Below, piece after piece: positions 33,394 to 43,948 of a stretch of 64,000 nt of DNA. The stretch's first letter is position 1; every line of letters starts with the position of its first letter. The stretch comes from Caulobacter radicis. Its GTDB lineage: Bacteria; Pseudomonadota; Alphaproteobacteria; Caulobacterales; Caulobacteraceae. Position numbers and translations under genes: made by a program. A model generated the notes under the pieces. The model was not told the origin of the DNA and did no database searches. It worked only from the letters and a program-made list of their open reading frames with translations. The DNA lies in contig NZ_QDKO01000006.1 of NCBI RefSeq assembly GCF_003094615.1, positions 1 to 64,000 on the forward strand, in the 5' to 3' direction.

Positions 33394-34383
33394 CTACCCC
33401 ACGAACCCGGCCGCGCGGCGCAGGCGATCGTTGATGGCCTCGCCCAGGCCCTCGTCGGGGATCGGCGCCACGGCTATGGCCGCCGGCGCGGTGCGGTCGG
33501 CCGCCCGCAGGTAGGAAAAGAGATTGGCGGCGGCCTGCGCCAGATCGCCCGTGGGGCTGAGGTTGAACACCCCCTCCCCCTCCGGCCACGGCCCAAAGGC
33601 CAGGAAAGCCTCGCCGGCGTCCGGCGCCTGGGCGTTGATCCGCACCGGGGCGTCGGGGGCGTAGTGCAGGGCCAGGCGCCCGGGCGAGCGCTTGGCGTCG
33701 TCGTCGGCCTCGGCGAGCGGCCCGACCACCGCTTCCAGCTGGGCGCGGGTGACGGCGCCGGGGCGCAGCAGGCGCACGGGGCCGTCGAGCACGGCGACGA
33801 CAGTGGACTCCAGGCCGACCTGGCAGGGCCCGCCGTCGAGCACGGCCGCGCACTTGTCGCCCGTCTCGGCGAAAGCGTCGTCGAAGGTGGTGGGGCTGGG
33901 ACGGCCCGATCGATTGGCCGAGGGGGCCACCACCGGTCCGCCGAACGTGGCCAGCACGGCGCGGGCCAGCGGGTGACCGGGCACGCGGATGGCCACGGTC
34001 TCCAGCCCCGCGCGGGCCAGGTCGCAGACGGCCGAAGGATCGGCGATCGGGGCGACGATGGTCAGGGGGCCGGGCCAGAAGGCTTGCGCCAGGGCTCGCG
34101 CACGATCGTCGAAGGCGGCGATGCTCGCTGCGGTGTCCAGGTCGGCGACGTGGGCGATCAGCGGGTTGAAGCGCGGACGCCCCTTGGCCTCGAAGATCGC
34201 CGCCACGGCCGCGGGGTCGGACGCATCCGCCCCGAGGCCATAGACGGTTTCGGTGGGCAGCAGGACGAGGCCCCCGCTGGCGAGGGCCTGCGCCGCGCGG
34301 GCTACTTCTTCTTGGCCGCCATTTTCGCGGTGAGCGCGAAGCTCACCTTGATCTTGGCCGGTATCTGATCCGTCGACGCCCAT
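33394..34383 (-). CDS. L-threonylcarbamoyladenylate synthase (Sua5/YwlC type); start uncertain
   Basis: The protein carries the YrdC domain, recognisable from GGLVLLPTETVYGLGADA and the later VAPSANRSGRPSPTTF. A Sua5-type C-terminal domain follows. It makes threonylcarbamoyl-AMP from threonine, bicarbonate and ATP for t6A37 tRNA modification. The only in-frame ATG lies at 34383 and would overlap the b561-YceI gene by 82 bp, adding about 25 non-family residues. The true start may be a non-standard codon near 34300. The enzyme call is firm; the N-terminus is not. Confidence 0.85.
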   Translation of the reverse strand: MGVDGSDTGQDQGELRAHRENGGQEEVARAAQALASGGLVLLPTETVYGLGADASDPAAVAAIFEAKGRPRFNPLIAHVADLDTAASIAAFDDRARALAQAFWPGPLTIVAPIADPSAVCDLARAGLETVAIRVPGHPLARAVLATFGGPVVAPSANRSGRPSPTTFDDAFAETGDKCAAVLDGGPCQVGLESTVVAVLDGPVRLLRPGAVTRAQLEAVVGPLAEADDDAKRSPGRLALHYAPDAPVRINAQAPDAGEAFLAFGPWPEGEGVFNLSPTGDLAQAAANLFSYLRAADRTAPAAIAVAPIPDEGLGEAINDRLRRAAGFVG

Positions 34384-35657
34384 TCGCCCTGTCCAACCCC
34401 GAACGCGGTCCGGTCGAGGGTGGTTACACCGCGAGCCTTGGCCGTGTCGCCGTCGATCTTCAGGCTGAAGGGCAGGCTGAGAGGCTTTTTCACGCCGCGC
34501 AGGTTCAGCGTCCCGTCGGCCACGAAGCGGCCCTCGGCGGTCTTGCGGAACTTGGTCGCGGTGAAGGTCGCCTTGGGCGAGGCCGAGGTGTTGAAGAAGT
34601 CGGGGCCCTGCAGGCTCTCGTCGCGCTGGCCGTCGCCCGTGCCGGCCGAGGCCAGGTCGACGCTGACGGTCAGCTTCGAACGGTCCAGCGCCTCCGGCGA
34701 GAACAGGATATCGGCGGTCCAGCGGCTGAACGTCCCGTGGATCGGGGTGTCGGCCCAGGCCAGGTCGAAGTCGAGGTGCGAGCCCTTCTGCACGGTCCAG
34801 GCGACCGGGTCCTTCAGGGCGCTGTCGGCGGGCGGCTCGGTGGTTTCAGCCGGCGTGGCCTGCGGCGCGGGACCGGCCGTCGGCGCGACCGGCGCGGCGG
34901 CCGCCGGCGCCTCGTCCGGCAGGGCCAGGTCGTCGGCGCTGCTTTCGGCCGGCGCGGGCTGCGGCGCCTTGGCCTTGGCGGGGGTGTAGAGATAGCCGGC
35001 GGCGACCACGGCCGCGAAACCGGCGGCGGCCAGCCACAGGCGCGGCTCCTTCAGGCCCGGCTTGGCGCCGGCGGCCATGTGGCCGAACACCTCGTCGCGG
35101 TCGAGGATCTGGTGCTTGGCCACCGCGCCAAGGTGCAGGGCCAGCAGCACGTAGGTGAACTTGACCAGCACGCTGTGGCCGATGTGGCCAAAGTCGTTCC
35201 AGGCGTCCTTGGCCCCGGCGGCCAGCTCCGGCAGGCCCGGAATGTGCGGCCAGGGAATGGCGCCGTAGAGGACGGTCGGGATGTTGATGCGGCTGGTCGA
35301 GGCGATGATCCAGCCGGTCAGGGGCAGGCCGATCATGATCACGTAGAAGCCGACGTGCACGGCGCTGGCGGCCAGCTTTTCCCAGGTCGGCTGGCCGGCC
35401 GGGGCCGGCGGCGACTTGTGGGTGAATTTCCACAGCAGGCGCGCGACGCTGAGCACCAGGATGGTGATGCCGATCGACTTGTGCAGCTGGAAGAGGGCGA
35501 AGGTCTCCGCGCCCTTGGGGCCGTCGTCGGCCCGCCAGCCCAGGATCACCTGGAAGATCAGAGCGGCGGCGATCAGCCAGTGCAGGATGATCGCCACCGT
35601 CGAATAACGGGATGGGCCCGCCGCCGAGGCGGGCTTGGAAAGCGTCTCGGCGGTCAT
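34302..35657 (-). CDS. Cytochrome b561 domain fused to YceI-like domain
   Basis: The 451-residue protein is a fusion. Residues 15-205 are a four-helix di-haem cytochrome b561 domain whose haem-ligand histidines are visible in ILHWLI, LHKSIG, VHVGFY and GHSVL. After a proline/alanine-rich linker (about 228-280), residues 285-451 form a YceI-like beta-barrel lipocalin fold that normally binds isoprenoid quinones. The design suggests an electron-transfer device coupled to a lipid/quinone pocket. A separate free YceI gene lies 23 bp upstream on the same transcript. Confidence 0.88.
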   Translation of the reverse strand: MTAETLSKPASAAGPSRYSTVAIILHWLIAAALIFQVILGWRADDGPKGAETFALFQLHKSIGITILVLSVARLLWKFTHKSPPAPAGQPTWEKLAASAVHVGFYVIMIGLPLTGWIIASTSRINIPTVLYGAIPWPHIPGLPELAAGAKDAWNDFGHIGHSVLVKFTYVLLALHLGAVAKHQILDRDEVFGHMAAGAKPGLKEPRLWLAAAGFAAVVAAGYLYTPAKAKAPQPAPAESSADDLALPDEAPAAAAPVAPTAGPAPQATPAETTEPPADSALKDPVAWTVQKGSHLDFDLAWADTPIHGTFSRWTADILFSPEALDRSKLTVSVDLASAGTGDGQRDESLQGPDFFNTSASPKATFTATKFRKTAEGRFVADGTLNLRGVKKPLSLPFSLKIDGDTAKARGVTTLDRTAFGVGQGEWASTDQIPAKIKVSFALTAKMAAKKK

Positions 35658-35680
35658 AGGCCGTCCCTTAGCTCAGGATC

Positions 35681-36304
35681 TTACTTCTTCGGATTGAATT
35701 CGGCTTCGATCGCCAGGTCGACGTCGTCCGAGACCATCGGCACCAGGTGGGTGAAGCCGAACTCCGAGCGCTTGATCTTGCCGGCGGCCGAGAAGCCCAT
35801 GATCTGCGAGCCGAACGGGGTCTTGGCGAAGCCGTTGTAGGTGACGTCCAGGGTCACCGGCTTGGTCACGCCGCGGAAGGTCAGGTCGCCGGTCAGCTTG
35901 CCCTTGCCGGGCGAGGTCTGCTCGATCTTGGTCGAGACGAAGGTGATCGTCGGATACTTGGCCGAGTCGAAGAACTTCGGATCGTCCGAGATTTCCTTGT
36001 TGAAGTTGGGCAGGCCGGTGTCGACCGACTTCGGATCGACGGTGATCGACACCTTCGAGGCGGTCGGGTTGGCCGGGTCGTAGGCGTACGAGCCGTCGAG
36101 GCCCGACAGGCGGAAGGTGTAGTTCGAGGTGCCGAAGTGCTTCACGCGCAGGGTCAGGCTGGCGTGGCGCTTGTCCAGGGCCCAGGTCCCGGCCGGAGCG
36201 GCGGCGGGATCCGTCGCCGGTTGCGCCAGGGCGGCGACCGGGGCCGCGAGGGGAGCGGCGAGAAGGGCGCCGGCCAGAATGGCGTAGGCGAAGGGGCGAG
36301 CCAT
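35681..36304 (-). CDS. YceI family periplasmic protein
   Basis: The 207-residue precursor has a Sec signal and a YceI beta-barrel domain. Recognisable segments are LDKRHASLTLRVKHFG, VDTGLPNFNKEISDDPKFFD and TFRGVTKPVTLDVTYNG. YceI proteins bind isoprenoids or quinone-like lipids in the periplasm. The ATG at 36304 has a GGAG upstream; an in-frame upstream start at 36337 lies outside the signal. It is the first gene of a pair with the b561-YceI fusion. Confidence 0.88.
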   Translation of the reverse strand: MARPFAYAILAGALLAAPLAAPVAALAQPATDPAAAPAGTWALDKRHASLTLRVKHFGTSNYTFRLSGLDGSYAYDPANPTASKVSITVDPKSVDTGLPNFNKEISDDPKFFDSAKYPTITFVSTKIEQTSPGKGKLTGDLTFRGVTKPVTLDVTYNGFAKTPFGSQIMGFSAAGKIKRSEFGFTHLVPMVSDDVDLAIEAEFNPKK

Positions 36305-36500
36305 GGTCTCAGATCTCCAAACTGACAAAACTGTCATAGTGACGGTTGCTGATTACCCCGACTTAGGAACTTCACCGTCCAGTTGAAGGGGCGTCTCCTC
36401 ACGAAGCCGTGATCGACAGGCGGTCCTTGGCGCGATTGGCCGCGCGATCTAAACAGGGATCACATACCCCAACCCGACGCTTGAACAGATCGGCCCCCGC

Positions 36501-38249: not shown

Positions 38250-38251
38250 AA

Positions 38252-38386
38252 GATCCTCCCCCTCTGGGGGAGGCGATCGCGCAGCGATCGGTGGGGGGAG
38301 TGGCTACGAAATCGGCCAGCGCATGGTCGGCTGAAAACGTCCCCCCTCCGGCCTTCGGCCGCCTCCCCCATCGGGGGAGGTTCCGA
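38252..38386. repeat. Intergenic inverted repeat, family C (CCTCCCCC type)
   Basis: Opposed GC-rich arms (GATCCTCCCCC near 38252 and GGGGGAGG near 38378), with a GCGATCGC-containing stem between, form a large imperfect palindrome between convergent genes. Related C/G-run sequences occur at 41503-41625, 43950-44000, 50350-50402 and 63145-63170. Each has a distinct core, so they form a loose family of intergenic elements. Confidence 0.55.
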
Positions 38387-38396
38387 AGGCTTGGAT

Positions 38397-39155
38397 CTAA
38401 TGCCCCCTCGCCAGCATCCACACGGCCATCGCAACCATCATCACGTTCTCGGTCAGCGAGATGAAGCCCAGCGGCACGTTGCTGTCGCCGCCGACGCAGG
38501 CGCATTTCAGGTCGCGCTTGTCGATATAGACGGCCTTGAACACCGACACCGCGCCGATGCCGCCGATCACCAGGGCCAGCGGCGCGGAGAACCAGGTCAG
38601 CGCCCCGGCCGTCATCAGCACGCCCGCCAGGCCTTCGGCGAACGGATAGACGTAGCCGTACGGAACCCAGCGCTTGGCCAGCAGGTCGTAGCCCAAAAAC
38701 ATCGACGAGAAGCTCTCGACGTCGCGCAGCTTCTGGATGGCCAGCACCACCATCGAGAAGCTGATGAACCACTCCACCGCCCGGCCCGTGAAGGGCGTCC
38801 CGTCCACGGCGTAGGTCGCCGCCAGGGCCATCAGGGCGGTCATGGCGAAGAGGGCGATCACCGGCGTATAGGTCTTGGCCTTGGGATCGCGGGGCTTGGC
38901 GCCGAACCAGCGACGCAGGTCGTCGAACCCGCCGATCCGCTCGCCGCCGACGAAGACCTGCGGCGTGGTCTTCACGCCATGCTCGGCCTTGAAGGCGTCG
39001 GTGGCCTCGCGCGTGGTCAGGTGATGGTCCTCGACCTCGTAGCCCTTGGACCGCAGCAGATGCCTGGCCTTCAGCCCGTACGGACAGACGTGCTTGTCCA
39101 TCACCATGCGGTAGAGGACGGCCTTCTTGGGGGCGGTGGAAGCGGCGGACGTCAC
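38397..39155 (-). CDS. Glutaredoxin-MauE/DoxX fusion membrane protein
   Basis: The 252-residue protein has an N-terminal glutaredoxin domain (about 12-85) with the active-site motif CPYG and the cis-Pro segment VKTTPQVFVG. A MauE/DoxX-like four-helix membrane domain follows and contains a conserved CACVGG near the C-terminus. It probably relays reducing equivalents across or within the membrane. The start is taken as the GTG at 39155, with AAGGAG six bases upstream. The ATG at 39191 lies inside the predicted -10 element and would not be transcribed. It is divergent from the MerR gene. Confidence 0.8.
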   Translation of the reverse strand: MTSAASTAPKKAVLYRMVMDKHVCPYGLKARHLLRSKGYEVEDHHLTTREATDAFKAEHGVKTTPQVFVGGERIGGFDDLRRWFGAKPRDPKAKTYTPVIALFAMTALMALAATYAVDGTPFTGRAVEWFISFSMVVLAIQKLRDVESFSSMFLGYDLLAKRWVPYGYVYPFAEGLAGVLMTAGALTWFSAPLALVIGGIGAVSVFKAVYIDKRDLKCACVGGDSNVPLGFISLTENVMMVAMAVWMLARGH

Positions 39156-39189
39156 GGCGGTCTCCTTGTACGCGAGCGGGACCGGGCTC

Positions 39190-39220
39190 ATATGAGTTCC
39201 GTACCATGGTACGGAGTCAA
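39190..39220 (-). promoter_or_regulatory. MerR-type promoter/operator with 19-bp spacer
   Basis: Reading leftward, TTGACT (39215-39220) and TCATAT (39190-39195) are separated by 19 bp, the overlong spacer typical of MerR-regulated promoters. The spacer holds the perfect palindrome CCGTACCATGGTACGG (39199-39214). The arrangement closely matches the classic mer promoter (TTGACTCCGTAC...GTACGGAA). It should drive the glutaredoxin-MauE gene under the MerR-type protein encoded divergently. Confidence 0.75.
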
Positions 39221-39223
39221 GCG

Positions 39224-39640
39224 ATGGCGACGACAAACGGCGCGACGACGATCGCCGGCCTGGCCCGGGCCGGCGGCGTGGGCGTTGAAACGGTGCGCTA
39301 CTACCAGCGCCGGGGCCTTCTGGAGACGCCGGAGCGCGGCGAGGGTTCCGGGCTTTCGGGCGGCGTGCGGCGCTATGGCGACGAGGCGGTGAGGCGGCTG
39401 CGCTTCATCCGTTCGGCCCAGGCCGCCGGCTTCACCCTCGAGCAGATCGGCGAGCTTCTGGCGCTCGACGCCGGCGAGGACCGGGTGCGGGCGCGGCAGC
39501 TGGCCCGCGAGCGCATCACCGACCTCGACCGCAAGATCGAGGAGCTGCAGGCCGCCCGCGCGGGCCTCTCGCGCCTGCTCCACGCTTGCGGCGCCGACGA
39601 CCATGGACCCTGTCCCATCATCGCCGCGTTCGAGACCTGA
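39224..39640 (+). CDS. MerR-family metal-type transcriptional regulator
   Basis: The 138-residue protein has the MerR HTH (GVGVETVRYYQRRGLLETPE) and a long dimerisation helix. The C-terminal loop C122-GADDHGP-C130-PII has the CX7C spacing of the Cu(I) sensor CueR, not the CX8C of MerR. The helix cysteine that gives MerR its Hg(II) site (Cys82) is replaced by R88. The ATG at 39224 is used since GGAG precedes it; the ATG at 39206 sits within the operator. It should activate the divergent glutaredoxin-MauE gene by DNA distortion. Confidence 0.83.
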   Translation: MATTNGATTIAGLARAGGVGVETVRYYQRRGLLETPERGEGSGLSGGVRRYGDEAVRRLRFIRSAQAAGFTLEQIGELLALDAGEDRVRARQLARERITDLDRKIEELQAARAGLSRLLHACGADDHGPCPIIAAFET

Positions 39641-43078: not shown

Positions 43079-43099
43079 TTTTCGGGCCAAGGAGTGACC

Positions 43100-43948
43100 A
43101 TGACCCGCACCATCGCCCGCCTGCACGGCGCCTATCGCGACGACATCGGCGATCTGACCACCCGCCGCCCCCTGCCCGGTCCGGCGATCGGCCAGCTGGA
43201 TCCGTTCCTGTTCCTCAACCATCACGGCCCGCAGGTCTACCGCCCCGGCAATCACGGCCTGCCGTTCGGCCCCCACCCGCATCGCGGCTTCGAGACCGTG
43301 ACCTTCATCCTCGAGGGCCAGCTGTCGCACCTGGACAGCGGCGGCCACGAGAGCGTCATCGATGCGGGCGGCGTGCAGTGGATGACGGCCGGCAGCGGCC
43401 TGGTGCACGCCGAGCTGTCGCCCGAGGCTTTCAAGAAAAGCGGCGGGCCGCTGGAGATCCTGCAGCTGTGGGTCAACCTGCCCAGCCGCCTGAAGATGAC
43501 CGCTCCGCGCTATATCGGCCTGCAGGCGCCCGACATCCCCAAGATCGAGAAGGACGGCGCGACCATCGAACTGATCTCGGGCGAGGCGGACGGCGTGACG
43601 GGCCCGATCGCGTCGCTGACCGGCGTGGCCATGAGCGTCGTGCGGCTGGAGCCCGGCGCGACCCTGTCGCTGCCGATCCCATCCGGGCGTGCGGTGTTCC
43701 TCTATGTGGTGCGCGGCGCGGTCATGATCGGCGACAAGACGGCGGGCGCCTTCAACCTGGTGGAGCTGACCGACGGCGACGGGCTGGACCTGGCCTCGGC
43801 CGACGGCGCGGTGCTGCTGCTGGGCCACGCCGACCCGATCCGCGAGCCGGTCGTCTCGCACGGACCGTTCGTGATGACGACGCGCGAAGAAATCGTCCAG
43901 GCGATCCAGGACTACCAGGCGGGCAAGTTCGGCGAGGTGAGGGCGTAG
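43100..43948 (+). CDS. Pirin family protein
   Basis: The 282-residue bicupin protein has the pirin N-terminal metal-site segment [18 protein letters not shown] and a following [11 protein letters not shown] strand. Pirins bind iron and some have quercetinase activity; in bacteria, links to redox control of pyruvate metabolism have been reported for some members. The ATG at 43100 follows AAGGAG by 5 bases, better than the GTG at 43094. No regulatory gene is adjacent. Confidence 0.9.

Follow-up and report, generated by a model that had tools for sequence, protein, structure and literature searches.

What does a MerR-family regulator sense when it stands beside a mercury-type operator, lacks the helix cysteine of MerR and faces the gene for a membrane glutaredoxin? 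The question is raised by a divergent gene pair in a stretch of 64,000 nucleotides of Caulobacter radicis DNA, referred to here as the window. A preliminary description of this DNA had proposed a metal- or thiol-stress circuit of a kind not well described. That proposal is supported, and comparative evidence narrows the signal to copper or another monovalent soft metal, in preference to mercury or general thiol stress. In the reading favoured here, to which a probability of roughly 0.6 is given, a mer-derived sensor with a CueR-like loop responds to Cu(I), Ag(I) or Au(I) and drives the membrane thiol protein encoded by grx-mauE. The regulator probably switches on the membrane glutaredoxin, and comparison with related bacteria suggests that the trigger is copper rather than mercury. 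The starting points are directly observed: the genes, the operator and its conservation, the regulator clade, its residues, the neighbourhoods and the exchange of one regulator for another. Features of the locus are listed in table 1.

Table 1. Features of the regulator–grx-mauE locus in the window (positions count from its first letter).
Feature	Position	Strand	Remarks
Glutaredoxin-MauE fusion gene (grx-mauE)	38397..39155	-	252 aa, GTG start, stop included; AAGGAG site
MauE membrane domain	38409..38786	-	PF07291, residues 124-249; C218 codon 38502-38504, C220 codon 38496-38498
Glutaredoxin domain, monothiol CPYG site	38934..39098	-	PF00462, residues 20-74; C24 codon 39084-39086
-10-like hexamer TCATAT	39190..39195	-	19 bp from -35; read from sequence, family consensus
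mer-type operator	39199..39220	-	-35 TTGACT (39215-39220) and CCGTAC-CATG-GTACGG dyad
GGAG ribosome-binding-like site of regulator gene	39213..39216	+	inside operator; read from sequence
MerR-family regulator gene	39224..39640	+	138 aa, ATG at 39224; matches MerR-family models
Regulator key codons	R87 39482-39484; C122 39587-39589; C130 39611-39613	+	

Both genes lie where the preliminary description had placed them, and the Glutaredoxin and MauE Pfam domains score above cut-off. They are divergent, with the mer-type operator between them. The next genes out, for an acyl-CoA dehydrogenase and an M3 oligopeptidase, are both on the + strand, so that the fusion gene is alone on its strand. The oligopeptidase gene adjoins the fusion in 5 of 30 Caulobacter loci (own genome included), and the site is therefore not ancestral to the genus. 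Among the matches listed, the closest named relatives of the window fusion are those of C. zeae (98%) and C. endophyticus (95%). Between the fusion gene and that for the acyl-CoA dehydrogenase, at 38251-38390, lie palindromic stretches rich in GC, GGGGGAGG/CCTCCCCC; no second match to the central palindrome motif was found in the 64-kb window. Elsewhere in the window are a cytochrome b561-YceI fusion gene with a separate YceI gene alongside on the same strand (34302-36337) and a pirin-family gene (43094-43948).

Read on the - strand, the window promoter is TTGACT-CCGTACCATGGTACGGAAC-TCATAT, with a 19 bp spacer. On an E. coli mer plasmid the mer operator is TTGACTCCGTACATTGGTACGGAAG, and the two are identical across the -35 hexamer and both dyad arms, which bears out the near-classic mercury-resistance promoter (TTGACT, CCGTAC...GTACGG, 19-bp spacer) noticed earlier. 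The 64-kb window holds one match, with 0 mismatches, against 0.01 expected at three mismatches or fewer. The whole 5.57-Mb genome likewise holds one match with 0 mismatches, together with two sites at three mismatches. With a single perfect operator genome-wide, grx-mauE is the one evident target, as had been claimed from the visible sequence, and a multi-target regulon was rejected on the same count. All 106 loci with a window-type regulator carry the operator upstream of the fusion (0 mismatches in 68, one in 26, two in 10 and three in 2). Shuffled upstream regions reach three mismatches or fewer in 1 of 2120 cases, and this difference, together with the low expectation in the window, argues that the match is not due to chance. 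The consensus, TTGACTCCGTACcATGGTACGGA, equals the E. coli plasmid mer operator except in the middle four bases. When the same 106 upstream regions are compared with the CueR box (CCTTCC...GGAAGG), each shows at least nine mismatches. Among loci that have no divergent regulator, the mer-type operator occurs in 1 of 26 (L046, two mismatches); no regulator was found beside that fusion. The DNA side of the putative switch is well supported by conservation.

The regulator combines features of two sensors. Hg(II)-responsive MerR binds its metal through three ligands, Cys82, Cys117 and Cys126. The window regulator has R87 in the place of Cys82, 35 residues before C122, and retains the two loop cysteines, C122 and C130, which have seven residues between them, as in CueR. 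The CueR-spaced pair and the absence of the MerR helix cysteine had both been read correctly in the preliminary description. Where CueR has its selectivity residue, Ser77, the window regulator again has arginine. In an AlphaFold monomer R87 starts a long helix (87-124) and C122 lies near the end of that helix. The best-scoring solved relative is MerR (5crl). The score against the MerR family model TIGR02051 is 104.3 bits, below the cut-off of 150.85, and that against the CueR model TIGR02044 is 88.7 bits, below the cut-off of 147.4; the window-type regulators L013, L044 and L065, which were also scored, fall below both cut-offs as well.

In a regulator tree built without L096 and L097 (labelled CueR-like; poor or interrupted), the 90 regulators paired with the effector cluster together (SH-aLRT 95). 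This group lies on the Hg-MerR side with support of 94, in an assemblage that also includes one long-branch paralogue, and the CueR rows group apart (support 97). Because columns are few and branches long, the exact sister of the clade is unsure. The selectivity position, 35 residues before the first loop cysteine, was read in 89 of the 90 paired regulators, L056 being cut by a contig end: it is Arg in 82, His in seven and Cys in none. Arg also occurs at -33 in 83 of the 89 and at -31 in 80, and the two-cysteine loop with seven intervening residues is present in 83. In the reference rows the position is Cys in each script-readable Hg-, Zn- or Cd-type sequence ('Zn/Cd-type' being, for some rows, our own label) and Ser or Asn in CueR. 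According to the available parts of two papers (PMC9909328, PMC11591864), Ser77' marks monovalent sensors and Cys divalent ones; the window clade fits neither published class. The conserved operator, the retained loop and the lack of a selectivity cysteine support the proposal made here; the Arg or His in place of the Ser of monovalent sensors, as described in the part of PMC11591864 consulted, counts against a copper reading.

By the tests run, the regulator is neither MerR nor CueR. Membership of CueR was rejected on clade, operator, selectivity residue and score together, and membership of a mercury operon on the missing Cys82, the missing mer genes and a family score that is too low. A few related sequences deserve separate mention. 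In the L056 regulator a Cys adjoins the selectivity Arg (GEDRC). The own-genome paralogue L002 has Cys at the selectivity place, by a hand count of a sequence that the script did not read. Another, L003, is presumably SoxR-like, to judge from its cysteine pattern. No CueR-like paralogue was found among the two other MerR-family matches of the genome.

In the effector, counted over distinct sequences, C24 and G27 are present in 121 of 121 fusions, and 120 of them have C218 and likewise 120 have C220. The window fusion has no cysteines other than C24, C218 and C220. A CPYG glutaredoxin domain is followed by a MauE domain, the arrangement of SmGrx3-type proteins. A predicted model (mean pLDDT 78.5, 20-row alignment) has a glutaredoxin fold, with a Z of 11.1 to 3msz_A; in a fold search aimed at the membrane part the glutaredoxin domain filled the match list, so that the search bears on that part alone. 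The membrane part has five membrane-length or near-length helices in the model and four by hydropathy count, and the loop charges are not decisive. Five helices would place the CxC loop on the same side as the glutaredoxin, and four on the opposite side. A phage origin was considered and rejected: two phage records matched, at less than 60% identity and over at most one-third of the protein, in the glutaredoxin part. In one genome the fusion is found as two pieces in different frames (L110 and L113, residues 8-157 and 160-250), perhaps through a frameshift or an assembly error.

Fusions of this kind are widespread. A scan of named genomes gave at least 544 relatives, of which the best 80 were kept. 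The fusion is present in 22 of 385 sampled Alphaproteobacteria, 75 of 249 Caulobacteraceae genomes, 54 of 398 sampled Pseudomonadota genomes and 298 plasmid records. A divergent regulator stands at 115 of the 141 loci examined, 106 of window type and nine called CueR-like (two of them poor); the sampled loci overlap between collections (e.g. L005, L117), and these counts are not independent; the residue counts were made on distinct sequences. The search for conservation of the divergent pair, which had been put forward as a check, thus gave 106 of 141 loci with a window-type regulator, every one with the operator. The class sample of 24 loci (L090-L113, both pieces of the split fusion counted) has four window-type regulators, three called CueR-like and 17 loci with none within 1.5 kb. 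A phylum sample of 25 new loci includes 10 of window type, and the operator is present at every one of these (0-3 mismatches). Since the two samples often lack a window-type regulator, the regulator–fusion pair is one lineage of a broader effector family. The label 'none' that L001 carries in the effector tree reflects nothing more than that this locus is the window itself.

Which metal is involved is suggested by the genes nearby. In 24 of 80 loci the fusion lies near genes for a multicopper oxidase, CopB, CopC, CopD, DUF411 or a four-helix copper protein, the commonest being the oxidase, CopB and DUF411. The mer structural genes that MerR controls are missing: MerA, MerT or MerC was found near the fusion in none of the 80 loci, and the perfect operator of the own genome stands at grx-mauE. 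A pump cluster of the CusA/CzcA family is found at 16 of the 80; one representative was tested against a model, which cannot tell Cu/Ag pumps from Zn/Cd pumps. A copper marker or such a cluster is present at 36 loci, and neither was found in the examined flank of the other 44. Eight plasmid regions with the fusion were chosen rather than drawn at random, two of them being reached via a CueR match; in five the fusion lies among copper-annotated structural genes, a sixth carries an annotated cueR together with genes for a heavy-metal-associated protein and DUF305, and two have none of these. The copper-gene loci, set against the missing mer genes, and the plasmid contexts argue for copper or a monovalent soft metal.

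The Caulobacteraceae point the same way. DUF411 and the fusion occur together in 32 of 249 genomes, a mild enrichment (odds ratio 2.2, p 0.01, with no correction for relatedness). A stronger sign is their closeness on the contig: by positions read by hand, the two lie 10 kb or less apart in 15 of these 32 genomes. MerA, scored over its cut-off, accompanies the fusion in four genomes, always on a different contig. The contrast favours copper. Other observations count against it. Besides the 44 loci just mentioned, 14 of 20 wider stretches, mostly around regulator-less fusions, have no copper marker; four have the oxidase, CopB or DUF411, two have a P-type ATPase only, and a mer structural gene was found in none. 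The neighbours in the window, acyl-CoA dehydrogenase and oligopeptidase, also weigh against copper, as does the own genome, in which DUF411 was not found. That genome carries a CopB gene on another contig, and no MerA was found in it at the threshold used.

Further evidence for copper comes from the exchange of the regulator. In five Methylobacterium loci and a plasmid, the same effector is paired with a CueR-type regulator, and a CueR box with 0-2 mismatches lies upstream of it. One of these regulators (L022) passes the TIGR02044 cut-off, with 160.6 over 147.4. The CueR-paired effectors, together with the regulator-less L062, form a clade whose sister (100/96) is L044, which has a mer-type regulator of the window type. 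Four of the Methylobacterium CueR-type regulators (L022, L040, L045, L152) have Asn where Ser77 is expected, L022 among them although it passes the cut-off. Devosia L070 has a CueR box with one mismatch; no regulator was found beside it. A second substitution involves the CsoR family. In 4 of 42 loci scanned (L155, L162, L187, L191) a CsoR-family gene lies directly upstream of the fusion on the same strand, apparently as one operon with grx-mauE; the scan was a motif match, which can miss members. All four match the NCBIfam model of the copper repressor RicR best, with scores below its cut-off. The pairing of this effector with CueR and a CueR box, and the CsoR-family genes in front of it, both speak for copper.

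A mechanism can be outlined in which the metal, the binding geometry, the activation step, the topology and the effector chemistry are drawn from family knowledge and from context. (i) A dimer of the regulator would sit on the mer-type operator inside the 19-bp spacer of the grx-mauE promoter. (ii) In excess, Cu(I) (or Ag(I)/Au(I)) would be bound linearly within one protomer, between C122 and C130. (iii) R87 of the other protomer would stand where CueR has Ser77 and MerR has Cys82. (iv) The DNA would then be untwisted, allowing RNA polymerase to transcribe grx-mauE. (v) The encoded membrane protein, in which C24 forms a monothiol glutaredoxin site and C218/C220 a CxC pair in a loop, may handle copper bound to glutathione or protein, or repair thiols, at the membrane.

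Other signals have to be weighed against copper. The regulator might still be a sensor of mercury or organomercury that has lost the third cysteine, with the fusion shielding thiols from mercury. The position of its clade beside Hg-MerR, its best-scoring solved relative and its operator all fit. Even so this is improbable, because the place of Cys82 is occupied by Arg or His in every readable regulator, no MerA, MerT or MerC was found in the 80 loci, MerA and the fusion share no contig in the genomes that have both, and CueR or CsoR-family genes replace the regulator in some relatives. Much the same low likelihood attaches to a sensor of thiol oxidation or electrophiles that works through a C122-C130 disulfide or adduct, the glutaredoxin restoring membrane thiols. 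The nature of the effector speaks for it, two cysteines suffice for a disulfide, the selectivity residue matches neither known metal class, and a review table, in the part of the source available, gives heat shock as the inducing condition of SmGrx3. Neither copper-gene neighbourhoods nor exchange with CueR and CsoR-family regulators would be expected of a general thiol sensor.

The pair may instead belong to general heavy-metal islands, its signal being one divalent metal (Zn, Cd, Pb) or more than one metal. Near Methylobacterium fusions there is a Cys-type MerR, and the P-type ATPase at L045 scores best as a Zn/Cd/Hg/Pb transporter; such flanking genes count against copper, and the CusA/CzcA model is blind to the difference between the two kinds of pump. 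This is the least probable of the alternatives, given that the regulators have no Cys where divalent-type reference rows have one and that the most frequent markers are multicopper oxidase, CopB and DUF411. Copper thus remains the preferred signal. A bolder extension of the copper reading is tentative and a good deal less likely than the reading itself. The clade may represent a third selectivity class of the MerR family, in which the Ser of monovalent and the Cys of divalent sensors have given way to a basic patch, D-R-x-R-A-R, where the dimerisation helix begins. Such a site would read Cu(I)/Ag(I)/Au(I) either as an anionic bis-thiolate or bound to glutathione. The mer operator would have been kept, and the dedicated output, a three-cysteine membrane glutaredoxin, would be a new component of copper resistance.

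If correct, the copper reading gives a concrete, testable role to the SmGrx3-type proteins, a family whose function is called unknown in the available part of PMC6315971. The pair also shows a mercury-type operator and DNA-binding region serving a different sensor site. This is relevant to the evolution of selectivity in the MerR family and to possible crosstalk where real mer operons occur. The SmGrx3 architecture, the recurrence in many genomes and the conserved Arg or His at the selectivity position had escaped the preliminary description.

The effector resembles SmGrx3 (SMa0280) of Sinorhizobium meliloti, which according to the part of PMC6315971 consulted also has an N-terminal CPYG glutaredoxin and a C-terminal MauE domain. 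Fusions encoded on S. meliloti plasmids match that of the window at 73.7%. On pSymA of S. meliloti ml45 a MerR-family gene lies divergent and directly upstream of the fusion, which is assumed here to be SMa0280. The same part of that 2018 review describes SmGrx3 as having low deglutathionylation activity, no mutant phenotype and an unknown function (PMC6315971). The lack of a phenotype counts against a copper role, though no copper test is named there. The sources returned by a literature search, as far as their text was available, held nothing relevant beyond PMC6315971 and no report connecting SmGrx3 with copper or with the MerR-family gene next to it. Neither 'glutaredoxin' nor 'Caulobacter' occurs in the main text of PMC1526738.

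Hg(II)-responsive MerR of the Tn21/Tn501 type shares with the window regulator the operator, the recognition region (VETxRxYQR), the 19-bp spacer and the divergent layout. In contrast to it, the window regulator has R87 for Cys82, a loop shorter by one residue, a score below the TIGR02051 cut-off and no mer structural genes beside it. CueR shares the seven-residue spacing of the cysteine pair, the CPI after the second cysteine and, at part of the loci, the copper-gene context, and in Methylobacterium itself pairs with the same effector. Unlike CueR, the window regulator belongs to another clade, uses another operator, has Arg or His for Ser77 and scores below the TIGR02044 cut-off. CsoR-family metal repressors (PF02583), unrelated to the window regulator in fold and mechanism, are encoded at four loci immediately in front of this effector, and not beside the window pair.
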